A DNA stretch of 52,972 nt from Archaeoglobus sp. (GTDB lineage Archaea > Halobacteriota > Archaeoglobi > Archaeoglobales > Archaeoglobaceae): contig JACDNU010000013.1 in assembly GCA_017656505.1 (NCBI GenBank), positions 1 to 52,972 on the forward strand. The letters are read 5' to 3'. The translations under genes and the position numbers were made by a program. The stretch's first letter is position 1, and each line of letters starts with the position of its first letter. This document shows, one piece after another, positions 6,732 through 21,198 of the stretch. The notes beneath the pieces are model-generated. The model was not told where the DNA came from, ran no database searches, and was given only the letters and a program-made list of their open reading frames with translations.

Positions 6732-7271
6732 CTACCATCTTTCCCGGTGGATAAGTTCCTCGATTGGATACCTCCTCCTTCTCTCAGGCGACTCAGCAGG
6801 CCATCCTATCGGAATTATAGCCATTGGACGGGCGTATTCTGGTATTCGGAGCAATCTTGAAATCTCACCCTCATGAAAAGCCCCAACCCAGACGCACCCC
6901 AAGCCCAAAGCGCACGCAGCAAGCAAAATGTTCTCTATCGCAGCCGTAGCATCTTGTTCAGCATAAAGCTTGCCTCTCTCACCATAAACTCTCATACTCC
7001 TTGGATAATTTGCACAAACAACCACCACAACCGGAGCTTCGGCGATAAACATCTGATTTAAGGCAGCTTTTGCTATTCTTTCCTTCTTTTTTTGATCTTT
7101 AACGATTATAAAATCTCTTGCTTGGAGATTGCCAGCAGAAGGAGCTGCATTTCCGGCTTTTAAAACCTCCATCAAATATTCTTCCGGAATCTCTCTTCTC
7201 TGAAACTTCCTTATCGAAACTCGATTGAAAATTACATCTAGGCACATTCGAAGGTCTTTTTCTGAATCCAT
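6732..7271 (-). CDS. Nitroreductase family flavoprotein
   Basis: The 179-residue protein belongs to the FMN-dependent nitroreductase family. Visible landmarks are the N-terminal FMN-binding [17 protein letters not shown] (about residues 17-33), [16 protein letters not shown] (about 46-61), the central [22 protein letters not shown] helix region (about 104-125, its end CVWVGAF) and the C-terminal [11 protein letters not shown] (about 149-159). Substrate cannot be read from sequence; members reduce quinones, nitro compounds or act in cofactor metabolism. The ATG at 7271 aligns with the normal N-terminus. Confidence 0.92.
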
Positions 7272-7332
7272 GAAGGAAGTCTGTTGTCCAAAAATAAAAT
7301 TTTTGGAATTGAAACGAAAGATTAGACAAAAA

Positions 7333-8151
7333 TTAGGCTATGTCTCTGGAAGTATCCAGATGCACACCCTCACCCACATCGAACTTGAAAAGATCGCTTA
7401 ACGGTGTTCTACCCCTTATTTTTGGAATTCCAAATCTCTTCACGTATCTCGAACCTGAAATTTCTATGAAAATCTCCATGATGACATCAGATAAGTCAAA
7501 AATTCTCTTTATCGTTTTTGCGTCGAGCGAATCTTTAACAACATAGATGAATGCAAGTCCTGAGTTCTCTTTTGGTAAGGTGTATAAAGTGTTTAGGAAC
7601 ATCTCCTTTAGGCGACTTTCCACTTTCAAATCAAAAAAGAAGTTGAGATTGTCGATTACAAGGTTTATTTCCTCCTCATTAAGCGTTTGAATTTCATCTA
7701 ACGCAAAATTGATCGTTTTCAAATCAACCTCATCGGGATCGTTATGGAGCTCTTTGAAGTAAAAGGAGTAAACGTCGATGAAGTTAACAAGGGTATCATC
7801 CAGATTAAGGCTGGAAAAATCCTTTTTTATTGCAAAAACCGGTCTGGTGGCATTCAGATAGTAAGTTTTTCTCTCCGTTGAAAACTGATACAAGAAAGTT
7901 TCTGGACTTGCGGCAGGATCTGCGTACACGCATACGAGAGAACCTTTCGGAAAGCCACCATCTAGATTTTTGTCAAGCAAATCGATCCCTGTGGGAAGGT
8001 TCTCATCTCTTAAAAGGGAAGGAAGCCTCTCCACTTCAGTCTCATCGCTAAAACTAGTTTTTTTAACGGTTTTAGCGGTTTTAAGTGTTTTTACCTCTTT
8101 TTTCTCACTTTCATCTCCTAAAACGTCTCTGATTGTCCAGCCCACGTTCAC
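7333..8151 (-). CDS. Inactivated RecA/KaiC-like ATPase-fold protein
   Basis: The 272-residue protein has the start of a KaiC/RadA-type core: [19 protein letters not shown] (about residues 56-74), which normally precedes the Walker A loop. That loop reads [11 protein letters not shown], lacking the GxxGxGKT lysine, so ATP hydrolysis is unlikely. The Walker B equivalent [10 protein letters not shown] (about 163-172) is partly kept. Inactivated RecA-superfamily proteins are common in euryarchaea and are thought to act in signalling. The first about 45 residues are Lys- and Ser-rich and probably disordered. Start codon is GTG without a strong ribosome site. Confidence 0.65.
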
Positions 8152-8356
8152 AACTTGAGTTTGCTGGTAGATAAAGCTTTCGTAAAATCATTATTATGGA
8201 ATATGGGTTTATGCGAGTTTATGTGAGTTTATGGCGAGTTTTGATAAGCTCCAGCAAATCGTTAGTTAGCTTCACATCCTGAACGTTTAGCTTGAACCCT
8301 CTCATTATTATTATGTGTTTTAGAAAAGGTTAACTTGAAAAAGGATAATTTGGGAC
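8152..8356. other. Divergent intergenic region with 10-base direct repeats
   Basis: This is the shared upstream region of the RecA-like gene (minus) and the beta-helix gene (plus). Between 8205 and 8241 a near-exact 10-base unit, roughly GAGTTTATGN, repeats three to four times. A 28-codon frame on the minus strand (start 8305) has no supporting features. Confidence 0.4.
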
Positions 8357-9844
8357 ATGCGACTTGGAAAAAAGATCAAAATCTGCTTAGTTCTGATAGC
8401 TTTGCTGTCCGTACTCGCTCCAGTCAGTGCTGAGGTGGAGCATATTTCATCGTGTACCATCTTAGAAAAGCCCGGTTATTACGTTCTTGATACGGACATA
8501 ACCATCAATAAAACGAAGTGTATTGAAATTAAGAGTAGTGATGTTGTGTTGGAGGGAGATGGTCGTAAAATTAAAGCTGGAAGATTCGGCGGGACCTATG
8601 CTATTTACGTATACCATGAGGCTGGGTTGGGAAATATAACGATAAAGAACCTCATTTTGGAGAACTGGGTTTATGGAGTCTCTTTGAGAGATGTAGCAAA
8701 GGTTAGTATCGAAAGCGTAACAACTGAAGGTGGATTCTTTGGGATATATTCATCCAGTGTGGCTGACTTAACCCTTAAAAACTGCAAGGTGAGCAATCCA
8801 AAGAAAACGGCTTTTGGGCTTGAAGGGGTGAAAAAGGCTGAGCTGCTAAATCTAGAGGCTGTAAACGCAGCGGAAAATGGGTTGTTAATCTCAAACTCTG
8901 CAGATATATCGGTTCACGATTCTGTATTCGAGAAAAATGGCAATGGCATGTATGTGAAAGACTCTGTAAATGTAGCCATCGATAAGTGCAGATCATCTTA
9001 CAACGAAAAGTTCGGCCTCTACATCTACAGTTCAGAAAAAGTTAACATCTCAGGATTTGAAGCGATCGGAAACAAATTCGATGGAATCAAGGCGTACAGT
9101 TCAAGCTCATGTAAGATATATTCAGGTAACTTTGATGGGAACAGGAATGCTATATTTCTTGAGAATTCTGAAGATTTCAGAGTTATAGACAATCGAATTT
9201 TGAATTCTGAAACAGGAATATTCGTTTCGAACTCGAAGAATAATCATTTCACATCCAATTATCTTTCAAACAACGGGAAGGGAATAGTTTCTACATCGTC
9301 TTCTTATAACCTCTTCAACAGCAACCGCATCATCGGTGGGGAAGCTATAACCTTCCACGAATCCTCTTCTAGTACGATAACGGATAACTGGATTGAAAAT
9401 GCAAAGAAAGGCATATCTCTGATAGCAAGCAATCGAAATCTGATTTATCTCAACAATCTCTTTGCCGAGAAAAATGCTTTTGATGATGGAGATGGAAACA
9501 TATGGTATTCCCCGAAGCTTAAAAAAGGCAATTTCTACTCCGACTACACTGGAAAGGATGCGTACGGTGATGGAATTGGCGATGAAGACTATCTGATACC
9601 TCCAAAGAACGTCAAAGACATCTACCCCCTCATGAAGCCGACGGGAGAGAAACCACCGGTGATAGAAAAAGAAAAGGCACCACAAGAAACACCTGAATCT
9701 CCCAAAGAAACTCCGACCACCACTCCAGAGGAAATCAAGGAGACTCTGATAGACTTCGGCAGCATCGAATTCGTTCTTGGATTGGTTGCACTGGTTGTTA
9801 TAGCGCTTTTAATAGCTCTGTTGAAAAGAGATAGGATTCTTTGA
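8357..9844 (+). CDS. Exported, membrane-anchored parallel beta-helix (NosD-like) protein
   Basis: The 495-residue protein starts with a signal peptide (hydrophobic residues 9-24, likely cleavage after VSA). Some 350 residues of parallel beta-helix repeats follow, with recurrent Asn/Ser-rich turns such as NLIYLNNLF and SSYNLFNSNRI. The segment GKDAYGDGIGDEDYLIPP (about residues 398-415) is typical for the end of NosD/CASH domains. A Pro/Glu/Thr linker (about 432-462) leads to a C-terminal transmembrane helix (about 468-489) and a KRDR stop. It should be displayed outside the cell. Ligand unknown; copper delivery as for true NosD is not supported by context. Confidence 0.85.
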   Translation: MRLGKKIKICLVLIALLSVLAPVSAEVEHISSCTILEKPGYYVLDTDITINKTKCIEIKSSDVVLEGDGRKIKAGRFGGTYAIYVYHEAGLGNITIKNLILENWVYGVSLRDVAKVSIESVTTEGGFFGIYSSSVADLTLKNCKVSNPKKTAFGLEGVKKAELLNLEAVNAAENGLLISNSADISVHDSVFEKNGNGMYVKDSVNVAIDKCRSSYNEKFGLYIYSSEKVNISGFEAIGNKFDGIKAYSSSSCKIYSGNFDGNRNAIFLENSEDFRVIDNRILNSETGIFVSNSKNNHFTSNYLSNNGKGIVSTSSSYNLFNSNRIIGGEAITFHESSSSTITDNWIENAKKGISLIASNRNLIYLNNLFAEKNAFDDGDGNIWYSPKLKKGNFYSDYTGKDAYGDGIGDEDYLIPPKNVKDIYPLMKPTGEKPPVIEKEKAPQETPESPKETPTTTPEEIKETLIDFGSIEFVLGLVALVVIALLIALLKRDRIL

Positions 9845-9911
9845 TTTACCCTTTGATTTTAACATCTAATTTTACCAACAAAATTTTTAATTTTTGGATT
9901 TAGGTGCTGGT

Positions 9912-10415
9912 ATGGAAAGGATAATTTGCATCTTTGTCCTTGCTATTGTTGTTCTATTTACTGGATGTTCAGAAAAAGTCTCTAAGGCTGACGTTCAACC
10001 TAACTCTCCTTTGCAAACTCCATCCAACAATCAAAATTCAACTTCTATTCCTTTTCACAACAATACAATGCTAACACCTTCGCCTCTACCTTTGTCTCCA
10101 CAATCTCAACGACCTCAACCAACTGAACCACCTCAACCACCTCAACCTCCTTTGCCTCATATCTCGCGATGGGAGGTTGAGTTAACAGGAGAAGAAAGAG
10201 AGGAGACAATCAATCTTGTTCTGAATGATACTAAAGTTAAAGAATGGCTGGGAGAGGGGTATGATATTATTAACGTCACAAGAAGCGATGATACGGCATG
10301 GGTCTACATCCTCACCCAGAAACAGATACCTCCGTGGATCGTTGGCATAACGCTAATGGTTCCGGTAGACCTCAAGAATAAGCGTGCGGAGGGTGAGGCG
10401 ATAAACTTTAGGTAG
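9912..10415 (+). CDS. Exported lipoprotein, first domain of an interrupted gene
   Basis: The ATG at 9912 gives 167 residues with a lipoprotein signal: a hydrophobic helix followed by the lipobox LFTGC (Cys about residue 19). A long Pro/Gln/Ser/Thr/Asn-rich linker (about residues 30-80, including repeats of PPQP) leads to a globular domain beginning LTGEEREETINLVLND. The frame stops at TAG (10413-10415), but the same frame stays open for another 100 codons encoding a second copy of the domain. The protein is therefore probably truncated. An upstream TTG at 9894 is less likely to be the start because it would precede the signal peptide by six polar or small residues. Confidence 0.75.
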   Translation: MERIICIFVLAIVVLFTGCSEKVSKADVQPNSPLQTPSNNQNSTSIPFHNNTMLTPSPLPLSPQSQRPQPTEPPQPPQPPLPHISRWEVELTGEEREETINLVLNDTKVKEWLGEGYDIINVTRSDDTAWVYILTQKQIPPWIVGITLMVPVDLKNKRAEGEAINFR

Positions 10416-10718
10416 ACCTTAGCCTCTCTTACTGAAGAACAGAAGGAGAAAGCTAAAAAAATTGCCCTATCAGATCCCGATGTGAGGGAGAGAATTGGAA
10501 GTGATTACAAGATAACGGGCGTTGAGGTGATGGGTTATTCTATCTGTTATATGGGGTGCTATCCAAAAGCATATCCGGCAGTGTTCATAAAAAGCAATCC
10601 GGATCCGTGCAAGTATGGGATGGACTTTACAATTCTTGTTGATTTGAAAGAGGAAAAAGTGGCCGATATACTTTCTTATTACAGGAAACCCTCACCTGAA
10701 TGCTTAAATTCCAGTTAA
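10416..10718 (+). pseudogene. Second domain of the lipoprotein, cut off by an in-frame TAG
   Basis: Directly after the TAG the same reading frame encodes 100 residues beginning TLASLTEEQKEKAKKIALSD and ending at TAA (10716-10718). It aligns with the first domain: LTxEE, D-x-x-V-x-E-x-[IL]-G, Y-x-I, and VDLK near the end. A GTG at 10482 could start a separate product, but that would cut off the first helix and lack any export signal. The simplest reading is a nonsense mutation in a two-domain lipoprotein. Pyrrolysine insertion is a less likely alternative, since TAG is an ordinary stop for several genes here. Confidence 0.65.
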
Positions 10719-10824
10719 GCTTAACCTGCTTTGTTCTTCAGGAAGGTTACCTTTTTAAATCTCCACACTTCTTCAGTTTTCAACCAACCAAAACAATTTT
10801 GAATTCTTCATCCCACTCATTGCT

Positions 10825-12930
10825 ATGTATAGCAGCCCCGAGGTCTGGCGGGAATTTTTCGAGTCTTATTACCAGAATGAACTCAACAGGCTTGCTGATG
10901 CTATTATTTCTTTAGATGGGGCTGACAGATCGATTTACGTTGATTTCCTAAGGGATTTGGCAATCTTTCGGGAAGGAAAGCTGGCTGAGGAGCTCCTCGA
11001 ATTTCCGGAAAAGGTTATAGATGATGCCTGCAAGGGTATAGAGCTCTCCTTCAACATCCACGATGTAAGGCTCGAGAACTGCATGGCCCGCTTTACGAAT
11101 TTACCACTTACAAGGAGGATTCTGATAAGGGATCTGAGGAGCGATCACGTTTCGAAGTTCATCTCAATTGAAGGAATCGTTAGGAAGGTTACTGAGGTAA
11201 GGCCTAAAATCGTTAGGGCAGCCTTTATATGCGGTGCTTGTGGGAATGAGGTCTGGGTTGAGCAGGATGATACAACCCTAAAGCAGCCGTACGAATGCAG
11301 GAATTGCCAGAGCAGAGGGAGGTTTATTCTGCTGCCTGAGAAGAGCGAGAAGGTTGACAGTCAGAGAATTCGAATTCAGGAATATCCGGAAAATCTTCGT
11401 GGCGGTGAGCAGCCGCAGACTCTCGATGTTTATTTGGAGGGAGATCTCACGGGCAGGGTTAATCCGGGAGATCGGGTGGTTGTTAACGGGATTGTTAAGG
11501 CAAGACCCCGAGGATATGGAACCAAGAAGCTTCTGCACATGGATATTCATTTGGTTGGAAATTCCTTGGAAATCCTCCAGCAGGAGTACGAGGAGTTCGA
11601 GATAACTGAAGAGGACGTAAAGAGAATTCTCGAGCTCAGTGAAGATCCGAAAATATACGAGAAAGTTACGAACTCCATCGCTCCGATAATTTATGGATAT
11701 GAGACCATCAAGCTTGCGATAGCTCTCCAGCTATTTGGTGGAGTACCGAAAAAACTTCCAGATGGAAGTGAGATAAGAGGAGATATTCACATTCTGTTGG
11801 TTGGAGATCCGGGAGTTGCGAAATCTCAAATGTTAAGGTACGTGCACAGAATAGCACCCAGAAGTGTTTATACAACCGGCAAAGGCACAACTTCTGCTGG
11901 ACTTACAGCTACAGCGACAAGGGATGAGGTGGATGGCAGATGGACACTCGAAGCTGGAGCTTTGGTTTTGGCAGACAAGGGTATAGCTTTGGTTGACGAG
12001 ATCGATAAGATGCGCCCGGAGGATCGCTCCGCCCTGCATGAGGCGATGGAGCAGCAAACCATAAGTGTCGCAAAAGCTGGAATAAACGCCATGCTCCGCT
12101 CTAGATGTGCTTTGCTTGGAGCTGCAAATCCCAAGTATGGGAGATTTGACCTTTTCGCTCCCATAGTCGAGCAGATCGATTTGTCTCCGACCCTACTCTC
12201 CCGATTCGATCTGATTTTCGTCATGACTGATGAACCTGATTCGGATAAAGACAGAATGCTCGCTTCTCACATACTCGACACACACGAGCTTGGCGAAAAA
12301 CTGGAAACCCTGAGAAATCTCTCATCTTCCGAGCTTGTAAAAGAAAAACTTGAGTCGGAGGCAAAGAAAATCGAACCACAGATCGATCCAGACTTGCTGA
12401 GGAAGTACATAGCTTACGCAAAGAGAACGGTCTTTCCCGTGCTGACAGATGAGGCAAAAAACAGAATAATTGAATTTTACGTCTCTTTAAGAGACTCGGC
12501 AAAAGGCTCGTCGGTTACAGTTACCGCCAGGCAGCTTGAGGCTTTGGTGAGGCTTGCAGAAGCGTCGGCAAGGCTAAGGCTCTCCGATAAAATTACGATT
12601 GAGGATGTAGACAGGGTAATCGGAATTTTCAGGAAGAGTCTTGAGCAAATAGCCTTGAATCCGGAGACGGGAGAGATAGATATAGATTATGGCCTTTCGG
12701 GCACCTCAAAAACTCAGAGGGACAGGATTCTTACAATAAAACGAATAATTGAAAATCTAGAAAAGGACTCGCAGTACACAAAGGGTGTGCCAGAGGAAGC
12801 AATCCTGCATGAGGCTGAAATGAAGGGAATAGAGAGGGCAAAGGCAAAGGAAGTCATCTATAAGCTGAGAGAGAAAGGGGAGATTTATTCTCCAAGGCCG
12901 AATTACTACAGGATAGTTCATTCGTACTGA
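10825..12930 (+). CDS. mcm: Replicative helicase MCM
   Basis: The 701-residue minichromosome maintenance protein unwinds DNA at the fork as a hexamer. The N-terminal region holds a zinc motif (CGACG near residue 136, CRNCQ near 158) and OB-fold. The AAA+ core shows Walker A GDPGVAKSQ (about 326), Walker B ALVDEIDKM (about 388), the MCM sensor LGAANP and arginine-finger motif LLSRFDL (about 458). A C-terminal winged helix (about 620-701) completes the family length. No intein is present. The ATG at 10825 has no clear ribosome site and is probably close to the transcript end. Confidence 0.97.
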   Translation: MYSSPEVWREFFESYYQNELNRLADAIISLDGADRSIYVDFLRDLAIFREGKLAEELLEFPEKVIDDACKGIELSFNIHDVRLENCMARFTNLPLTRRILIRDLRSDHVSKFISIEGIVRKVTEVRPKIVRAAFICGACGNEVWVEQDDTTLKQPYECRNCQSRGRFILLPEKSEKVDSQRIRIQEYPENLRGGEQPQTLDVYLEGDLTGRVNPGDRVVVNGIVKARPRGYGTKKLLHMDIHLVGNSLEILQQEYEEFEITEEDVKRILELSEDPKIYEKVTNSIAPIIYGYETIKLAIALQLFGGVPKKLPDGSEIRGDIHILLVGDPGVAKSQMLRYVHRIAPRSVYTTGKGTTSAGLTATATRDEVDGRWTLEAGALVLADKGIALVDEIDKMRPEDRSALHEAMEQQTISVAKAGINAMLRSRCALLGAANPKYGRFDLFAPIVEQIDLSPTLLSRFDLIFVMTDEPDSDKDRMLASHILDTHELGEKLETLRNLSSSELVKEKLESEAKKIEPQIDPDLLRKYIAYAKRTVFPVLTDEAKNRIIEFYVSLRDSAKGSSVTVTARQLEALVRLAEASARLRLSDKITIEDVDRVIGIFRKSLEQIALNPETGEIDIDYGLSGTSKTQRDRILTIKRIIENLEKDSQYTKGVPEEAILHEAEMKGIERAKAKEVIYKLREKGEIYSPRPNYYRIVHSY

Positions 12931-12937
12931 TCTGATC

Positions 12938-12962
12938 GATACTGGCAGTACCCCACAGTATC
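12938..12962 (+). terminator. Hairpin after mcm
   Basis: A perfect 7-base inverted repeat (GATACTG at 12938-12944, CAGTATC at 12956-12962) encloses an 11-base loop 7 bases after the mcm stop. No U tract follows at once, so it may be a 3' processing or stability element rather than a classical terminator. Confidence 0.3.
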
Positions 12963-13008
12963 CCATACCTATGGCAAATATTTAAAATCTTTTCAGCATT
13001 TTTCGCAC

Positions 13009-13920
13009 ATGGACAGGAAAGTTGGCAATATTGGTAGCATAGACTTCTCAGAGCTAAAAATATCGAAAATCCTTGAAGGAATGGATGCTACAGCGTTTAA
13101 CGCGAGAAGATTATCCCATGCTGCTAAGCTTTGGAGGGAGATGGTTGAGGGGGATTATTTCATCTTTTTGACTCTTGCCGGGGCCATGGTTCCCGCGGGA
13201 ATGAGAAACGTAATAGCTGGAATGATGGAAAAAGACTTCATCAGCTGCTTGGTCACAACTGGTGCGAATGTTGTTCACGAACTGATAGAGGCTTTAGGTA
13301 TTGGTCATGAGCTCGGGAGCGAGAGAGCTGACGATATAAAGCTCGCGAACGAGGAAAAGAACAGGATATACGATGTTTTTGTTAGCCAAAAGGCCTTCGA
13401 AGAGGTTGAGAATTTTTTGGCACCAATCATTTCTGAGCTTGAAGGAAATCTCTCAACCCCTGAGCTTATGAGAGAGATTGGAAAAAGGATTGCTGATGAA
13501 AAATCCTTTTTGAGAATCGCTTATGAAAAAAGTATTCCTGTTTTCTGCCCCACCCTTCACGATTCTATTTTTGGTTTGCACCTCTCCATTTACAGAAAGA
13601 AAGACTTTGTGGTCGATTTCTTAAAGGACATAAATCAGATTCTCGATCTTTGTTTTCAAAAAATCCCTCTCGGAGTTGTAATTGTTGGAGGGGGTGTGCC
13701 CAAGAATTTCACTCTGCAAGCAATGCTTTTGGCTGAAGGATTTGATTCTGCAATCCAGATTACCACCGACTCGCCGCAGTGGGGTGGGCTGAGTGGCGCA
13801 ACTCTTAGCGAGGCGAAGAGCTGGTGCAAACTCAAGGAGGAAGCGAAAGAGGTTACGGTTTACTGTGATGCAACAATAGCACTCCCTATTCTCTATGCTT
13901 ACTTGCTAGAGGTCTCTTAA
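13009..13920 (+). CDS. dys: Deoxyhypusine synthase
   Basis: The enzyme transfers the aminobutyl group of spermidine to a lysine of translation factor aIF5A, the first step of hypusine formation. The 303-residue sequence shows family blocks: AGAMVPAGMRNVI (about residues 58-70), TTGANVVHELIEALG, PVFCPTLHDSIFGLHL and SPQWGGLSGAT. The catalytic lysine should be the one in SWCKLK (about residue 273), which matches SWGK of characterised enzymes. A TATA-like AATATTTAAAAT about 30 bases upstream suggests a leaderless message. Single gene. Confidence 0.95.
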   Translation: MDRKVGNIGSIDFSELKISKILEGMDATAFNARRLSHAAKLWREMVEGDYFIFLTLAGAMVPAGMRNVIAGMMEKDFISCLVTTGANVVHELIEALGIGHELGSERADDIKLANEEKNRIYDVFVSQKAFEEVENFLAPIISELEGNLSTPELMREIGKRIADEKSFLRIAYEKSIPVFCPTLHDSIFGLHLSIYRKKDFVVDFLKDINQILDLCFQKIPLGVVIVGGGVPKNFTLQAMLLAEGFDSAIQITTDSPQWGGLSGATLSEAKSWCKLKEEAKEVTVYCDATIALPILYAYLLEVS

Positions 13921-13941
13921 GACAAATCTAGACTCCCAAAT

Positions 13942-14343
13942 TCACCACTCCATTTTGGGCTGCCCCTTTTTCAGACTCAAGAAAAGAAGGATCGCGCCGA
14001 GGATCATGAATATGTCTAGAGGTGGAAGCATTGAGCCAATAAAAGCGAGAGAAGCAGCCACTATGGTATTTCTTGAACTCTCCTTTGAAATTAGATAGGC
14101 AATAGCAGCGAAAAGAAAGCCAGTAAGAAAGACAACTGCTCCTAGGGTTGTGAGGAGAAAATCATGGCTTACCAGAAAGGATGGGAGGGATATTATACCT
14201 ATTGAGCCCATTATGAGATATCCTGCCAAGCTTATCAACCTTAATGCGATGGACACTATTAGCAGAATCAACCCGATTTCGTAGTAAAGATTAACTTCGG
14301 ATACTTTCTCAAGCGCCCGATCCAGTTCATCGGAATCGTTCAT
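13942..14343 (-). CDS. Small polytopic membrane protein, unknown function
   Basis: From ATG 14343 the protein has 133 residues; a TTG five codons upstream is less likely. A short acidic N-terminus is followed by four hydrophobic segments (about residues 20-42, 55-72, 79-98 and 103-124). It resembles no family I can name; small archaeal four-helix membrane proteins of this kind are common. It converges on the deoxyhypusine synthase gene and is divergent from the tRNA. Confidence 0.65.
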   Translation of the reverse strand: MNDSDELDRALEKVSEVNLYYEIGLILLIVSIALRLISLAGYLIMGSIGIISLPSFLVSHDFLLTTLGAVVFLTGFLFAAIAYLISKESSRNTIVAASLAFIGSMLPPLDIFMILGAILLFLSLKKGQPKMEW

Positions 14344-14452
14344 GGAATCACAACCCAACTTACACGAGGAAAATTAAAATGTTTTCCTTTGGAAGCAGGT
14401 TGAGTTATCGATATCTCTCACACCACCAGTATTGCCACAATATCGTAACGAA

Positions 14453-14464
14453 AATCTTAAAAGC
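14453..14464 (+). promoter_or_regulatory. TATA box of the tRNA gene
   Basis: The AT-rich element AATCTTAAAAGC lies 25-36 bases before the tRNA 5' end, the normal spacing for archaeal stable-RNA promoters. Confidence 0.5.
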
Positions 14465-14476
14465 ATCATGAAGATA

Positions 14477-14785
14477 TTAATTATGCAAGCCCGGGTAGCT
14501 CAGTCTGGGAGAGCGTTCGGCTGAAGACCGAATAGTCGCCGGTTCAAATCCGGCTCCGGGCATACTTTTTGTGGAAATTACAACAAATGCTGGTTGTATT
14601 TGCTTTTTTGCTTGCTCTACTAGGGCATCAATGAATTTCGAGATATTTCCGACATTTTTCTTGAGCCAATCATAGTTGGCTTTTTCTAACGTAATGTGTA
14701 AAGTCGGCCTGTTGCGCTTTGTTTGGCGTTTAGAGGTTTCTGGTTGGTTTTTATTTTGTGGCCACACTTGGATATTTATGGACAT
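14477..14785 (-). pseudogene. Probable integrase N-terminal fragment (IntN) at tRNA-Phe attachment site
   Basis: This 102-codon minus-strand frame has a good ribosome site (GGTGG) before its ATG at 14785. Residues 25-62 (PTLHITLEKANYDWLKKNVG and following SKFIDALVEQAKK) look like a small ribbon-helix-helix or N-terminal integrase domain. The frame then runs antisense through the whole tRNA-Phe gene, giving MPGAGFEPATIRSSAERS and PRLSYPG. In SSV-type archaeal integrases the attachment site lies inside the integrase gene, and integration leaves an N-terminal fragment overlapping the tRNA, as seen here. No second copy of the tRNA 3' half or of IntC is visible in the window, so the element appears lost. 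Confidence 0.55.
14489..14562 (+). tRNA. tRNA-Phe (GAA)
   Basis: A complete cloverleaf can be drawn: acceptor GCCCGGG with TCCGGGC (one G-T pair), D stem GCTC/GAGC, anticodon stem TTCGG/CCGAA around the loop CTGAAGA with anticodon GAA, and T stem GCCGG/CCGGC around TTCAAAT. The discriminator base is A, as usual for tRNA-Phe. CCA is not encoded, and no intron is present. The gene is read antisense by the integrase-like frame at 14477-14785. Confidence 0.96.
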
Positions 14786-14799
14786 ATAACCACCTTTTC

Positions 14800-14904
14800 G
14801 GCAGGAAGTGGGGAAAGGATTTGCTGGAAGCTGGAGCTCTGAAAGTTATAGACAAGCCTTTCACCAAAGAGAAGCTCATAGAGACTATGGAGAAATATCT
14901 GTAG
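14800..14904 (+). pseudogene. 3' remnant of a response-regulator receiver gene
   Basis: A 34-codon open stretch ending in TAG (14902-14904) reads LLEAGALKVIDKPFTKEKL and IETMEKYL. This is the pattern of the last beta-alpha unit of CheY-like receiver domains, including the conserved Lys-Pro and a terminal amphipathic helix. The rest of the domain is missing: the frame upstream runs into the integrase-like fragment without receiver-like sequence. It is therefore a remnant created by deletion or insertion next to the tRNA. Confidence 0.55.
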
Positions 14905-15045
14905 GGGTTTACTTTTGTAATTAAAATAACTTAGGTCTCTTTTTCGTAACCTTTGGGAGGATTTTGCATCTTTAGTTGAGAATCCTGTTCTTTAAAATTT
15001 TAAAATAAATTTTAAAAATTTGTACTCTTTGATTTTCACCTTCGC

Positions 15046-15060
15046 AAAAAATAAATATTT
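15046..15060 (+). promoter_or_regulatory. TATA box of the amino-acid transporter operon
   Basis: The stretch AAAAAATAAATATTT lies 30-44 bases before the ATG at 15090 and is followed by a GGTGA ribosome site at 15081-15085. Upstream, at about 14990-15020, is an AT-only inverted repeat (TTTAAAATTTT...AAATTTTAAAAATTT) that could bind a regulator. Confidence 0.5.
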
Positions 15061-15089
15061 CAAAATCTGTAATGAAAATTGGTGAAAAT

Positions 15090-16430
15090 ATGTATAAACC
15101 CACGAGAAGGGATTTTCTGAAGTTGTTGGGAGCGGGAGCCGCATGGGCCTTGTTTGGCTGTGCTCAACCTCCGAAACCGGCTGCAACTCCAACGCCTACG
15201 CCAACACCAACGCCAACCCCCAAGCCTACGCCAACACTGAAGGAACTCAAAATCGGCATAATCTCTTTCAGAGCTGGACCTGCCGCAGCTTTTGGTGTGC
15301 CAGCCCACAACACGTTAGACTATCTGGCAGAACAGATAAACGCGGCTGGTGGTATTGCGGGTGCAAAGGTAAAAATAATACATGAAGATCAGGGCTTAAG
15401 CCCCTCTGATACGGTAGAAAAGGCGAAAAAGCTTTGTCTACAGGATAAGGTTGATGTTGTAACGGGCATTCCAGGCACGAATCACAGCCTAGCCGTAGCT
15501 CCTGTATGCGATGAGAACAACACCTTCTTCTTGCAATGCCAGGCCAGAGCTGAATACGGCACGTGGAAAGATCCTGAGGATCCATCTAAGGGTGTTTTCG
15601 ACTGGGTTTTCCACACAGCTAATTCCACAACCTCGCATGCGGTGCAGGCGGCTTATATGGTTAAAGAACTCTTCCCAGAAACCAAGGTTATAGCTCAAAT
15701 TCATCAGGATTACGCTTACGGATACGATAACTACAACTACTTCACGGCAGCAATCAAAAAACTGATGCCCGAAGCAGAGCTGTTAGATCCACTTTATCCG
15801 AAGATCTTCTCTCCTGACTACACCCCTTACGTTTCACAGCTTGTCGAAGCTAAGCCGGACTTCATCTTCACAAGCCTGTGGGGTACTGACTTCACGAGGT
15901 TCGTGGATCAGCTCATTCCCTACAAACTTCTTAAGGGAACGGGAGGCAACACGATACTCGAAGGCTATTGGGACTTCTATCCTGCAATAGGAAGAGATGT
16001 ACCAGTCTTCGGACATCCACAGCCTTTCAACCAGGGTTCGATTGAGTATGCGGACTATCGCAAGATCCTCATTTGGTACAAGCAGAAATACGGGAATCTT
16101 GAGATGGGTGCGGTAGCGGACATAATCTCCTCGTTCTACACGTTCAAAGCGGCTGTAGAGAAAGCGTACGATGAGAAAGGAGCATTTCCGACGAGAGACG
16201 ATATAAGAGATGCGATGGAGAATTTAGGAAAAGTTCCCACACCCTACGGAGAGGGCATAATGAGAAAAGAAGATCACAGAGTTCTTTGGACAGTGGAATG
16301 CGGTGTAATCGAAAAAGATACCCTCGGTTACGGTTTACCTTACATCTACAAGCCCAAATTAACTCTTGATCCATCAAAACACGAACCTCCGGCCTTTGTG
16401 AAGGGAACTGACTGGATTGCCACTTGGTAA
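15090..16430 (+). CDS. Branched-chain amino-acid type ABC transporter, substrate-binding lipoprotein
   Basis: From ATG 15090 (GGTGA site 5 bases upstream) the protein has 446 residues. Its N-terminus combines a twin-arginine motif (RRDFLK) with a lipobox (LFGC, Cys about residue 23), so it is exported folded and lipid anchored. A Thr-Pro repeat linker of about 20 residues follows, then a periplasmic-binding-protein type I domain starting KIGIISFRAGPAAAFG. The family binds leucine, other amino acids, amides or urea; the ligand here cannot be read. It heads a complete five-gene Liv-type operon. A further ATG at 15072 lacks a ribosome site. Confidence 0.93.
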   Translation: MYKPTRRDFLKLLGAGAAWALFGCAQPPKPAATPTPTPTPTPTPKPTPTLKELKIGIISFRAGPAAAFGVPAHNTLDYLAEQINAAGGIAGAKVKIIHEDQGLSPSDTVEKAKKLCLQDKVDVVTGIPGTNHSLAVAPVCDENNTFFLQCQARAEYGTWKDPEDPSKGVFDWVFHTANSTTSHAVQAAYMVKELFPETKVIAQIHQDYAYGYDNYNYFTAAIKKLMPEAELLDPLYPKIFSPDYTPYVSQLVEAKPDFIFTSLWGTDFTRFVDQLIPYKLLKGTGGNTILEGYWDFYPAIGRDVPVFGHPQPFNQGSIEYADYRKILIWYKQKYGNLEMGAVADIISSFYTFKAAVEKAYDEKGAFPTRDDIRDAMENLGKVPTPYGEGIMRKEDHRVLWTVECGVIEKDTLGYGLPYIYKPKLTLDPSKHEPPAFVKGTDWIATW

Positions 16431-16461
16431 ATGAAAGTAACTGAGAATCGCAGATAACGTG

Positions 16462-17337
16462 ATGGGGATGATTTCCCAAATCGTAAATGGTTTAATTTTT
16501 GCCTCTATTTTATTTTTGGTTGCAACCGGCTTGACAATCATATTTGGAATTCTGAGGGTGGTTAATTTCGCTCATGGGAGCTTTTACCTAATGGGGGTTT
16601 TCATAGCCTATTCAATCACCCGTTTTTCATCTGAACCGGCTTTACATCTTGCAGCACCATTTATTGCAGGTTTTGTGGCGGGTGTGGTTGGGATAGCTTT
16701 TGAGAGGGGGCTGCTTAAGAACGTTTATGGTAGGGGAGAACTCTTCGAGCTTTTACTTACTTACGGTATGATATTCGTTTTCATGGATATCTTCAGAATT
16801 CTCTGGGGAAGTATGCCCGTCTCAGACCCGACTATTACATTCAAGCTTGGCATAATCTCTTTGGGTGGAACGATGATACCTCTCTACAACATCTATCTTA
16901 TCCTGATAGCTGCAGTGCTTGCAACATTCTTGTGGTTTTTGCTCTCGAAGACCAAAGTTGGAATGGTTATCAGGGCGACCTCCTTCGATTCTGAGGTTAC
17001 AAGCGCCTTTGGAGTTAACGTAAGCTGGGTTTATGCGCTCACGTTTTTCCTAGGATGCTTTCTCGCGGGATTTGCTGGCGGTCTGATGCTTCCGGTCACA
17101 GGAGCGTGGATTGGCTTAGATGTGGATATGTTGATTCTCGCTCTAGTCGTTCTGGTGGTTGGGGGGATGGGTAGTATAAAAGGAGCCCTCGTAGCTTCTA
17201 TCCTGATAGGGTTAATCAGATCATTTGGTATTTCGATGTTTCCAGCTATAGAATTGGCAATCGTGTATTTGATCATGATTGTGGTTCTGATAGTTAAACC
17301 CAGTGGCCTCTTCGGAGGTGCAGAAGTTGAAAGCTGA
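16462..17337 (+). CDS. livH: Branched-chain amino-acid type ABC transporter permease (LivH-like)
   Basis: The inner-membrane permease is about 291 residues with 8 or more hydrophobic segments and the LivH landmark ILRVVNFAHGSFYLMG (about residues 30-45). C-terminally it has GGMGSIKGALVASILIG, the usual EAA-like cytoplasmic loop region. The start lies within GTG-ATG-GGG-ATG (16459-16470); any of these is possible and ATG 16462 is given. It overlaps the next permease gene by about 11 bases, showing coupling. Confidence 0.93.
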   Translation: MGMISQIVNGLIFASILFLVATGLTIIFGILRVVNFAHGSFYLMGVFIAYSITRFSSEPALHLAAPFIAGFVAGVVGIAFERGLLKNVYGRGELFELLLTYGMIFVFMDIFRILWGSMPVSDPTITFKLGIISLGGTMIPLYNIYLILIAAVLATFLWFLLSKTKVGMVIRATSFDSEVTSAFGVNVSWVYALTFFLGCFLAGFAGGLMLPVTGAWIGLDVDMLILALVVLVVGGMGSIKGALVASILIGLIRSFGISMFPAIELAIVYLIMIVVLIVKPSGLFGGAEVES

Positions 17338-18286
17338 GACCAATTTGGTTAATTCGGTTAATTTGAAGACCAATCTTCTTTATATCCCCCTAGTTATAGT
17401 TCTCCTCTTGATTCCACTGGGTGGTGAGTACATTACGTATCTTACAGGACTCGCCTTGCTTTTCGGTATTGCAGCCCTATCGCTAAACGTTCTTCTAGGC
17501 TATACAGGTCTTCTTTCTTTCGGACATGCTCTCTTCTTTGGATGTGGAGCTTATACAGCTGGAATGCTCGTAAAGCATCTTAGCATAACTTCAATCGAAA
17601 TTCTAGTTCCTACTAGCATAATAACCTCAGTTATACTTGCTTTGCTTGTAGGAATCGTATGTGTCCGTCACACGAGGATATACTTCACAATGCTAACCAT
17701 TGCGATAAGCCAGCTTTTCTACGCGCTAGCCCACAAGCTAAGGCCGATAACCGGAGGAGATGACGGAATAAGGATTTATTCAACACATGTTTTCGGACAT
17801 GAAGTTGCTTCAATCACGGAATTCTACTATTACATTCTCGTTGCCTTCTTTCTCTGTCTTTTCTGTCTTCGAATAATCCTTCGTTCTCCCTTTGGTTTAA
17901 CTCTCCAAGCCATTCGTGATAGCGAGCTCAGGGCTAGATTTGCCGGAATCTCGATAATCAAGTATAGGCTGGCAGCTTTCGTAGTTTCAGGACTTTTCGC
18001 TGGCATAGCAGGAAGCATGTACGCTTTATTTCTCGGTCAAATCTCCCCAGACGATGTTTTGAGTGTGATGAGATCTGGAGAATTCGTTGCAATGACCTTG
18101 CTCGGTGGATACACGTCTTTCATAGGACCAATAGTTGGATCCTTCGTTTTTACCTACTTGAAAGCGGTAATATCTTCTGCAGCCCTTTACTGGTATCTCG
18201 TCTTCGGAATTCTGATTGTCTCGATTGTAATTTTCGTGCCAACGGGCTTAATGGGAGAGATCGAGAAAAGAAGGAGGACAGGATAA
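17327..18286 (+). CDS. livM: Branched-chain amino-acid type ABC transporter permease (LivM-like)
   Basis: The second permease, about 319 residues, shows the LivM signature LSLNVLLGYTGLLSFGHALF (about residues 51-70) and LGGYTSFIGPIVGS near the C-terminus. The start is uncertain: TTG 17327 has a good GGAGGTG site (17314-17320), while the frame remains open up to GTG 17303. Its stop TAA shares one base with the ATG of the ATPase gene, so translation is coupled. Confidence 0.92.
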   Translation: MKAETNLVNSVNLKTNLLYIPLVIVLLLIPLGGEYITYLTGLALLFGIAALSLNVLLGYTGLLSFGHALFFGCGAYTAGMLVKHLSITSIEILVPTSIITSVILALLVGIVCVRHTRIYFTMLTIAISQLFYALAHKLRPITGGDDGIRIYSTHVFGHEVASITEFYYYILVAFFLCLFCLRIILRSPFGLTLQAIRDSELRARFAGISIIKYRLAAFVVSGLFAGIAGSMYALFLGQISPDDVLSVMRSGEFVAMTLLGGYTSFIGPIVGSFVFTYLKAVISSAALYWYLVFGILIVSIVIFVPTGLMGEIEKRRRTG

Positions 18287-19017
18287 TGGATTTGCTGAAT
18301 ACCGAAGCTCTGAAGAAATACTTCGGTGAGGTTCATGCTGTCGATGGAGTTAGCTTGACTTTAAGGGATGCAGAACTTCTCTCAGTCGTTGGCCCGAATG
18401 GAAGCGGGAAGACTACGTTGGTAAATCTGATTTCCGGTGCTTTAAAACCCGATTCTGGTAAGGTTTACTTCGAAGGAAGGGATATCACAGGTATACCACC
18501 TCACAAACGCGTTAAGATGGGAATAGGAAGAAGCTTTCAGATTCCTGCAATTTACGAAAACCTTACAACTCTTGATAGTCTTCTAGTGTCGATCTTTTCC
18601 AACACAAATCTCTCGCACGTCTTCTACAAAACAAAGGATAAATTTGAGAAGGCGAAGGAGGAGGCAATAAACCTGCTAGAAACCTTAAACATTCCTTTAA
18701 AGCTTGTTGGTGAGCTACCCCATGGACAGAGAAAACTCCTAGATGTGGCGATGGCTCTTTCGCTAAAACCAAAGCTAATTCTGCTTGATGAGCCGACAGC
18801 TGGAATAAGCTTGGACGAGAGAGATGAAGTTATGCAAACAATAGTTGGTTTCATCAGAAACCAGAAGATCGCGGCCATAATAGTCGAACACGATATGGAC
18901 ATCGTAGCTGAATATTCGGACAGAGTAATTGTCATGCATGAGGGGAGAGTCCTAAAAGAAGGAGGAAAAGAAATTTTGGACGATGGGGAAGTGAGGAGGA
19001 TACTTATAGGTGATTAA
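18286..19017 (+). CDS. livG: ABC transporter ATP-binding protein (LivG-like)
   Basis: The 243-residue ATPase has Walker A GPNGSGKTT (about residues 36-44), a signature loop degenerated to LPHGQRKLLDVAMAL (about 143-157; normally LSxGQ), Walker B LILLDEPTAGIS and the switch histidine in VEHDMDIV. The LPHGQ form is typical of LivG proteins. It powers import together with the LivF-like protein. Confidence 0.94.
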   Translation: MDLLNTEALKKYFGEVHAVDGVSLTLRDAELLSVVGPNGSGKTTLVNLISGALKPDSGKVYFEGRDITGIPPHKRVKMGIGRSFQIPAIYENLTTLDSLLVSIFSNTNLSHVFYKTKDKFEKAKEEAINLLETLNIPLKLVGELPHGQRKLLDVAMALSLKPKLILLDEPTAGISLDERDEVMQTIVGFIRNQKIAAIIVEHDMDIVAEYSDRVIVMHEGRVLKEGGKEILDDGEVRRILIGD

Positions 19018-19066
19018 GGCATGATAAAGGTATTTAACTATATTAGTTTAGATTTCGGTGGTTAAA

Positions 19067-19708
19067 ATGCTCAAACTGGAAAATGTCTGCGTTAATCTGG
19101 CAAAGGTTGAAGTTCTGCGTAACATCTCGCTGGAAGTCGGTGAAGGGGAGATCGTGTGCCTAGTTGGCCCGAATGGAGCTGGCAAGACGACCAGTCTGAA
19201 GAGCATAATGGGTATATTAAAGGTTGTTTCTGGAAGAATAGTGTTTAAAGGGAGGGATGTTACCCCTCTCCCCCCTCATGAGAGGGCAAAACTCGGAATA
19301 GGTTACGCTCCAGAAGATAGAAGACTCTATCCTGATTTCACGGTGTGGGAAAACATAACCTTTCCTGCTAAAATTATGGGGGTGGATGAGGGAGAAATTG
19401 CTGAGAGGGTCTTCCGAATATTTCCTGAACTTAAAGATCAGACTCACAGGCTTGCATATACCCTCAGCGGTGGGCAGCAGAAGATGGTTAGTGTTGCTAG
19501 GGCTCTTGCAGCAAATCCCGAGCTAATACTTCTAGATGAACCGCTAGAGGGCCTTGCCCCTATAGTCAGATCGAGGTTTGCCAACGTTATTTTAGAAATG
19601 AAGAATGAAGGTATCTCTGTTTTGTTTGCAGAATCTAACATTTCTCACGTGAAGGATATAGCGGATGTTATTTACAGAATAAAGAGGGGAGAAATAGTGG
19701 AAACTTGA
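19067..19708 (+). CDS. livF: ABC transporter ATP-binding protein (LivF-like)
   Basis: The second ATPase (213 residues from ATG 19067, preceded by GGTGG) has Walker A GPNGAGKTT, the LivF-typical GYAPEDRRLYPDFTVWEN, the signature LSGGQQKMVSVARAL and Walker B LILLDEPLEGLAP. The switch histidine position reads FAESNISHVK rather than the usual EQN or EH; LivF proteins commonly have Gln/Asn here. The 40-base gap to livG holds an AT-rich TATTTAACTATATTAG, which could be an internal promoter. Last gene of the operon. Confidence 0.93.
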   Translation: MLKLENVCVNLAKVEVLRNISLEVGEGEIVCLVGPNGAGKTTSLKSIMGILKVVSGRIVFKGRDVTPLPPHERAKLGIGYAPEDRRLYPDFTVWENITFPAKIMGVDEGEIAERVFRIFPELKDQTHRLAYTLSGGQQKMVSVARALAANPELILLDEPLEGLAPIVRSRFANVILEMKNEGISVLFAESNISHVKDIADVIYRIKRGEIVET

Positions 19709-19767
19709 ACATTTAGCTGCAGTCTAAAATTAAATAGTTTAAATATAGTTATAGTTAATTAAAAAAA

Positions 19768-21198
19768 TTAAACGTCTGCAGAACCGATAAAGCAGCCGGG
19801 ATCTGTACCCCTAATATCGCCGAAATATCCGTAGGCTCTTGCCCTACAACCACCGCATATGTACTTGTAGTCACAATCCTTGCAAGCATAATCAGGTCCA
19901 TCTCTGTCTCTTAGTAACTCAAGGATACTGTTCTCCTGCCAGATTTTCAGGAAGCCATTTCTATAGTTTCCCACAACCAAAGGCAAAAATACGCAAGGTG
20001 TTATATCACCGTTCGGCTGGATGCCGCAGTAAAGCCTTCCAGCTCCACAACCACCCAAGAAATCGGCCAGCACGAGAGCGCTATCAGAAGGCATGCAAAC
20101 GTCTGCGAAATGCGTCGGGGTCATTCTTTCGCCTTTGCCCTCAAGAACTTTTTCCACTGAAACCACCGCATAGAGTGGAGAGGTTGAAAGAACTTGCAAA
20201 TTTCTTCTTTGCAGACTATCGTAGAGAAACTCGAGAAGCCATCTTCTCTCCTCTGCATTCAAGTCTAAGCTTGTGATCTCTTTCCCCCTTCCTGTTGGGA
20301 TGAAGTTGAAAACAACGAGTCTGTAAACCCCCAATCTTTCAGCTAGGGAGACGATTTCTGGGATCTCTTTCAAGTTTAGTTTTGTTGCCGTAGTAGCTAT
20401 TCCCGTCAGAATTCCAGCATCAACGCAGCTTTTTATCCCGTTCAACGCCCTCTCGAAGGCTCCTTTAACCCCCCTGAACTCGTCATGAGTTGCCGGATTT
20501 GCGGCATCCAGACTGACTTCTACGTAGTCAACTATCTCTTTCAGCCTTCCGGCCACCTCTGGGGTTATGAGGGTGCCATTTGTGGCTACACTAACATGAA
20601 ATCCCAGTTTAGAGGCATATTCGGCAACTTTCCAGAAATCCTTGTGGATTAGCGGCTCTCCCCCAGAGAAGGAGATTGCAACAACCCCCGCATCGTCTAG
20701 TTGCCTTAAAAGGTCAAGCTTCTCCTCCAGTGTGAGCTCATCGTCAACCTTTCCGGCATTTGCATAGCAGTGTTTGCACCTGAGGTTACATCTGTTTGTG
20801 AAGTTCCAAACCACAAGGAATGGAGCATACAGCTTTTGGGGGAGGGTTATTCCATACTTTGCAATTCCAGCTACAACGTTTGCAACACCTCTGCGGTAGT
20901 AAGGATCCCTCAAACCACCCTTAAGCAGCTCCTCATCAATGTCGAATCTTTCAGCTGCTTTGGCGACTATCTCGGCAATCCCTTTCGCATAGACTCTATC
21001 TTTGATGCCCGATGCTTCAGCCGCTCCGCAATAAATTGCTAAAACCTTTTCAAGTCTTTTGGGCGTAGCTACTTTTGAAATAAGCCCTTTTGCGACCGGA
21101 TTCTCGAAAAGTTTTTTTAGATAGTATATCACTTCATGAATTTTTGCAGCTTCATCAACTTTAGGGGGAGAACTCTCAACTCGGATATGATCTTGCAT
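19768..21198 (-). CDS. Radical SAM/SPASM domain protein
   Basis: From ATG 21198 (GGTGG site 5 bases upstream) the protein has 476 residues. A helical N-terminal region of about 125 residues precedes the radical SAM cluster motif CNLRCKHC (about 135-142), SFSGGEPLIHKDF, and a C-terminal SPASM region with CGIQPNGDITPC, CKDCDYKYICGGCRARAYG and a final Cys in DPGCF. These bind additional Fe-S clusters. Homologues modify peptides, haem precursors or enzymes; no peptide substrate gene is visible nearby. A TATA-like ATATATATAC lies at 21231-21246. Confidence 0.9.
   Translation of the reverse strand: MQDHIRVESSPPKVDEAAKIHEVIYYLKKLFENPVAKGLISKVATPKRLEKVLAIYCGAAEASGIKDRVYAKGIAEIVAKAAERFDIDEELLKGGLRDPYYRRGVANVVAGIAKYGITLPQKLYAPFLVVWNFTNRCNLRCKHCYANAGKVDDELTLEEKLDLLRQLDDAGVVAISFSGGEPLIHKDFWKVAEYASKLGFHVSVATNGTLITPEVAGRLKEIVDYVEVSLDAANPATHDEFRGVKGAFERALNGIKSCVDAGILTGIATTATKLNLKEIPEIVSLAERLGVYRLVVFNFIPTGRGKEITSLDLNAEERRWLLEFLYDSLQRRNLQVLSTSPLYAVVSVEKVLEGKGERMTPTHFADVCMPSDSALVLADFLGGCGAGRLYCGIQPNGDITPCVFLPLVVGNYRNGFLKIWQENSILELLRDRDGPDYACKDCDYKYICGGCRARAYGYFGDIRGTDPGCFIGSADV

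Follow-up and report, generated by a model that had tools for sequence, protein, structure and literature searches.

Archaeal suicidal integrases, whose Pfam domain is PF16795 (Phage_integr_3), include the SSV1 type of Sulfolobales viruses, in which integration splits the integrase gene into int(N) and int(C). Enzymes of this class use att sites of 40-50 bp, prefer the 3′ end of tRNA genes and have been found in Archaeoglobales (PMC8371274). Integration into the 5′ half has been described for pTN3-like enzymes (PMC8371274), and a review considers use of the 5′ half to be unique to them. The Thermococcales plasmids pT26-2 and pGE2 encode intact integrases with the order N-domain, in-frame tRNA att and catalytic domain. 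In Archaeoglobus veneficus, the pleomorphic provirus AvPV1 (BK065155) resides at a tRNA-Gly gene; it is intact and has been reported to excise and circularise (PMC10919331).

In this study we analyzed a 52,972-nt stretch of DNA (the window) from an Archaeoglobaceae genome and found at its tRNA-Phe gene what is almost certainly a scar, the int(N) left behind by a tyrosine integrase of the SSV type ("suicidal", probably pT26-2-like) whose element has been lost. The proposed splitting of the gene on integration resembles that of the SSV1 type, but int(C) and a second copy of att are no longer present at this locus. The predicted domain order is that of pT26-2 and pGE2, whose integrases are unsplit, whereas the window retains the N part only. 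This kind of genome scar is already known, and the locus is a new instance of it in Archaeoglobales.

The frame antisense to tRNA-Phe

ARAGORN finds tRNA-Phe as the sole tRNA gene of the window. The original prediction described a minus-strand frame with a ribosome site that reads through this gene in antisense, and it is borne out in each part: a GGTGG motif (14790-14794) lies 4 nt ahead of the ATG, and the frame stays open across all of tRNA-Phe and 9 nt more before its stop (Table 1). The frame overlaps the 3′ half of the tRNA gene, as an int(N) does. Its length by itself is only mildly unusual, and we take it as real because it has homologues, not because it is long. A chance open frame antisense to the tRNA has in its favor that about 1.2% of 20,000 dinucleotide shuffles (3′ flank) stay open over the same 297 nt, but with a strong homologue family, conserved residues and matched IntC partners set against it, its probability is negligible.

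In relatives, the anticodon arm marks the end of the att core, and only 14518-14785 of the frame is therefore expected to derive from the element, and the tRNA-Phe 3′ part in the window would be expected to have the same origin. In its final ~13 codons, the frame runs antisense through the host tRNA and flank. The stretch that matches the att core (45-50 bp) is duplicated at both ends of the intact elements in two relatives, G018 and G006. Scans of the frame alone against Pfam, PHROG and NCBIfam gave nothing above threshold, and a plain family look-up would therefore have missed the IntN.

Table 1. Features at the tRNA-Phe locus (window coordinates) and, in the last row, the complete element elsewhere in the genome
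Feature	Position	Strand	Details or basis
Host gene for a membrane protein, upstream of the tRNA; flank marker	13942..14358	-	Syntenic in JdFR-27, 80% identity
Minus-strand frame	14477-14785	-	102 aa, ATG start; ORF list
Presumed non-element tail: host tRNA 5′ part and upstream flank in antisense	14477..14517	-	Position relative to att core
tRNA-Phe (GAA), complete, putative attB target	14489..14562	+	ARAGORN
att core: tRNA-Phe 3′ part, anticodon arm to 3′ end	14518..14562	+	Single copy here
Putative IntN remnant of suicidal tyrosine integrase: N-domain and translated att, PGAGFEPATIRSSA	14518..14785	-	In-frame joins of relatives
N-terminal strand-helix-helix (RHH-like) domain, predicted, residues 1-72	14570..14785	-	Profile A2, model, hhalign
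GGTGG-containing stretch ahead of the ATG, putatively the last element sequence retained	14786..14798	-	IntN upstream alignment
Response-regulator (REC) gene 3′-end fragment, about 35 codons	14797..14904	+	Weak Pfam Response_reg match
ABC-transporter substrate-binding protein gene, flank marker	15072..16430	+	Syntenic in JdFR-27, 92% identity
Complete tRNA-His element, L183 (G000:C23)	about 6879-20003, contig coordinates

Intact integrases in related genomes

The claim that the frame is an SSV-type IntN overlapping the tRNA is upheld by relatives that keep both ends of their elements. When the two ends were fused through their longest shared repeat, the IntN-att-IntC joins were open in frame in G018 (432 aa, 45-bp att, tRNA-Phe), G006 (432 aa, 50-bp att, tRNA-Phe), G024 (456 aa, 44-bp att, tRNA-Gly) and G009 (384 aa, 43-bp att, tRNA-Leu), and the joins that were scanned, all except that of G006, matched PF16795 with E values of 1.2e-28 (G018), 1.6e-39 (G024) and 6.8e-37 (G009). 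In G018, IntC exits the tRNA-Phe 3′ half in the frame of the window (VPGAGFEPATMRSSA...), and an IntN homologue with a complete tRNA-Phe lies about 15 kb from it; G006 has the same arrangement, with about 8.6 kb between the ends. Both elements thus lie within tRNA-Phe and are bounded by IntC with the tRNA 3′ half on one side and IntN with the complete tRNA-Phe on the other. In L052 (from another Archaeoglobales MAG) and L098, IntC exits tRNA-Phe and translates the att in the frame used by the window. In G019, the N-domain, the tRNA-Phe 3′ half and IntC are adjacent, and this integrase is degenerate because of stops and a frame change. IntC pieces resembling one encoded on contig C5 of the present genome occur in 31 of 55 genomes of the family. 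The fusion with PF16795 is that of the homologues; the IntC of the window has been lost, and with it the C part, the site of the catalytic R...K/H/YxxR...Y, which in relatives matches PF16795.

The resemblance extends to the Thermococcales plasmids. The joined integrase of G009 aligns to those of pT26-2 and pGE2 over 97-98% of its length at about 27-29% identity overall, and a two-sequence search with the N-domain profile gave a match to pGE2 (domain E 2.8e-6) and a weak one to pT26-2 (0.009), in the same register. The comparison of residues 1-75 with integrase N-termini that accompanied the original prediction came out positive: they match the N-termini of the joins, of the tRNA-His element described below, and of pGE2 and, weakly, pT26-2. 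In PLSDB, residues 1-74 alone had no convincing match, and the fused integrases matched pT26-2 and pGE2. IMG/VR yielded no relevant viral contig when queried with the window protein, the L052 IntC and two fused integrases; the three matches of one scan were confined to 19 residues of the tRNA part.

A further parallel is provided by AvPV1. Its gp31 (BK065155.1 17724-17950, L104), which is annotated as hypothetical and cut at the end of the record, joins gp01 in frame, and from this join gp31 appears to supply the N-terminal half of that integrase. The joined protein has a strand-helix-helix-looking N-domain, a tRNA-Gly att and a PF16795 domain, as in the relatives of the window frame, but the sequence of its N-domain is only distantly similar. 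It is worth mentioning that L080, L083 and L085, which group with AvPV1 in the IntC tree, have a strand-helix-helix-like N-terminus straight before the catalytic domain with no tRNA motif between, and are possibly unsplit relatives.

The N-terminal domain

A single-sequence search of 60 related genomes with the window protein found N-terminal relatives down to E of about 1e-20, encoded in most cases on records labelled Archaeoglobaceae or Archaeoglobales; most of them run into a tRNA, often one other than tRNA-Phe. Profile A2, built from the N-domain with the tRNA part left out (11 rows, the window sequence among them), matched in 37 of 57 Archaeoglobales genomes. The N-domain (window residues 1 to ~74) adjoins a tRNA in 38 of 47 non-redundant Archaeoglobales matches, a fraction somewhat inflated because some loci came via a query that contained the tRNA-Phe segment. 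In these 38, the tRNA is directly downstream, mostly at 0-40 nt, and is read in antisense in 29 and in sense in 9; by anticodon, 16 tRNA species are represented. L41 and S49 of the domain are invariant, and R24, N47 and F51 are nearly so. The closest IntN of an intact element by sequence is that of G009 (47%), which targets tRNA-Leu, and the IntNs of the intact tRNA-Phe elements are 44-45% identical to that of the window.

The proposal that the segment is RHH-like is plausible, and its support is weak. In hhalign, the N-domain aligns to CopG-type RHH proteins in the correct strand-helix-helix register, with a probability of 21% and an E value of 0.001. The AlphaFold monomer model (overall pLDDT 61) has two helices, at 35-44 and 48-61 (block pLDDT 78-86 there), with no strand assigned. 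A TLHITLE stretch precedes the predicted helices, and together they plausibly fit a ribbon-helix-helix fold, which we regard as a lead. Foldseek of the model against the PDB gave no match, and a PDB sequence search gave no useful one.

An independent RHH regulator or antitoxin gene (CopG/MazE-like) that reads into the tRNA by chance would also have weak matches to MazE, CcdA and CopG-type proteins, an intact frame and a good ribosome site, all of which are found here. However, its homologues stand at many different tRNAs and in both directions, continue in frame into integrase catalytic domains encoded at the opposite end of the element and form the N-domain of intact integrases; no toxin partner is seen at the locus. 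The stand-alone RHH family that would have told against the original prediction was not seen, and we consider such a gene extremely unlikely.

Other integrase parts in the same genome

The genome carries several further pieces of such integrases. On contig C23, the tRNA-His 3′ half occurs twice as a 40-bp repeat (6964-7003 and 19928-19967), and the 13-kb element between the copies is bounded on one side by an IntN of this family and on the other by an IntC whose frame matches it. The joined C23 integrase matched neither PF16795 nor PF00589 at E 0.1 and weakly matched an integrase PHROG (0.00097); with its shared N-domain, it possibly represents an undescribed integrase subfamily. An IntN lies at tRNA-Leu(GAG) in sense on C58, and contigs C3 and C32 have IntC beginnings at their ends. 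C9 has an IntN at tRNA-Val, and on C5 an IntC reads out of the 5′ half of a tRNA-Gly (tRNA assigned by eye).

The presence of several related elements (C23, C58 with C3/C32, C9 and C5) would suit a displacement of IntC and the element, rather than their loss, by a chromosomal inversion or by recombination between two related elements, for which TKV2/TKV3 in Thermococcus kodakarensis is a precedent (PMC8371274). Against this, no second tRNA-Phe 3′ half is present in the whole assembly (39 bp, up to 3 mismatches; one match only), and the junction adjoins a fragment of a response-regulator gene. The absence of a second copy, first stated for the window, thus holds assembly-wide, and the search for a remaining 3′ half succeeded in G018 and G006 but not in this genome. 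As the assembly (99.6% complete) consists of 95 contigs, a gap may conceivably hide an IntC together with a tRNA-Phe half. Overall, we judge displacement unlikely.

Probable loss of the element and the junction

An intact integrated element would be flanked on either side by att repeats of about 40-50 bp, and this genome has a single copy. One copy is what loss of the far end would leave; it lowers the case for an intact integrated element and not that for an int(N) scar. The empty site is seen in the best-matching sister within the genus, JdFR-27 (G003), in which the flanking genes are the same and conserved and IntN is absent. The window diverges from JdFR-27 2 bp past the tRNA and realigns at about 14988. 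Between tRNA-Phe and the transporter gene, JdFR-27 has a thiI-like gene (named from sequence; L119 5808-6941 versus window 14563-15071), of which the genome under study has no close homologue (best 47% over part). G004 has the native post-tRNA flank of JdFR-27 (89% over 200 bp).

The rearrangement junction is at about 14795-14800, and the response-regulator fragment starts ~12-15 bp upstream of the IntN start codon. About 40 nt before the ATG, TATA-like motifs are found in C58, G023 and G009 (TTTAAATA, TTTATATA and TTTAAGTA). The motif is absent from the window and, at that position, from G032; it is thus not universal, as the G032 IntN lacks it there. If this element had its promoter at that place, it has probably been cut off. 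With the response-regulator fragment so close to its start codon, int(N) is therefore probably promoter-less and inert. If the fragment was cargo of the element, part of the element interior could remain.

The frame is still intact, which is atypical of an old pseudogene. The dN/dS values of the window IntN against that of C58 (0.43/0.53) and that of G009 (0.43/1.83) are too noisy over 72 codons to tell decay from constraint. That the orphan IntN is still made and functional, for example as an RHH-like protein binding the tRNA-Phe att region, seems very unlikely to us; if true, it could hinder new integrations or disturb related integrases in trans.

Proposed history of the locus

We suggest the following course of events for the int(N) scar. 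A plasmid or provirus would have carried attP inside its integrase gene, in the order N-domain, attP (identical to the tRNA-Phe 3′ part in antisense) and catalytic part. Recombination with attB in tRNA-Phe would have rebuilt the tRNA and split the integrase gene, leaving int(N) directly downstream of the tRNA in antisense and int(C) with the second tRNA 3′ half at the far end. A later deletion or rearrangement would then have taken out the element together with int(C) and the second att copy; the neighboring thiI-like gene was probably removed in the same event, by which the response-regulator fragment would have been joined 12-15 bp ahead of the start of int(N). We infer this order of events, a loss in one deletion and the inertness of int(N) from the arrangement of the locus and its relatives.

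Possible integration from both ends of tRNA genes and implications

The scar in the window is of the 3′-half antisense type. This genome and G009 also have integrases that carry this N-domain and read tRNA-Leu in sense at its 5′ half. Sense loci at the 5′ half of tRNA-Leu or tRNA-Gly are L002 (1463-1732), L184 and L185 (ends of C3 and C32), L087, L072 and L074. In a quick tree of IntC, for which orientation was labelled by short motifs with three labels corrected by eye, the sense loci L072 and L074 (tRNA-Gly 5′ half) group with the antisense L075 with full support, and the sense L087 groups with the antisense L096 (0.958). The two types thus appear to be intermixed, which we regard as a lead.

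The IntN scar accounts fully for the frame and advises caution against annotating small ORFs that overlap tRNAs as genes. As a marker, it suggests either that the integration postdates the divergence from the JdFR-27 lineage or that this lineage underwent a clean loss, and it displays the remnant of a decayed suicidal-integrase element. The homologues at both halves of tRNA genes suggest that integrases entering at either end of a tRNA gene share a single N-terminal module, which bears on the question of how suicidal integrases change their target.
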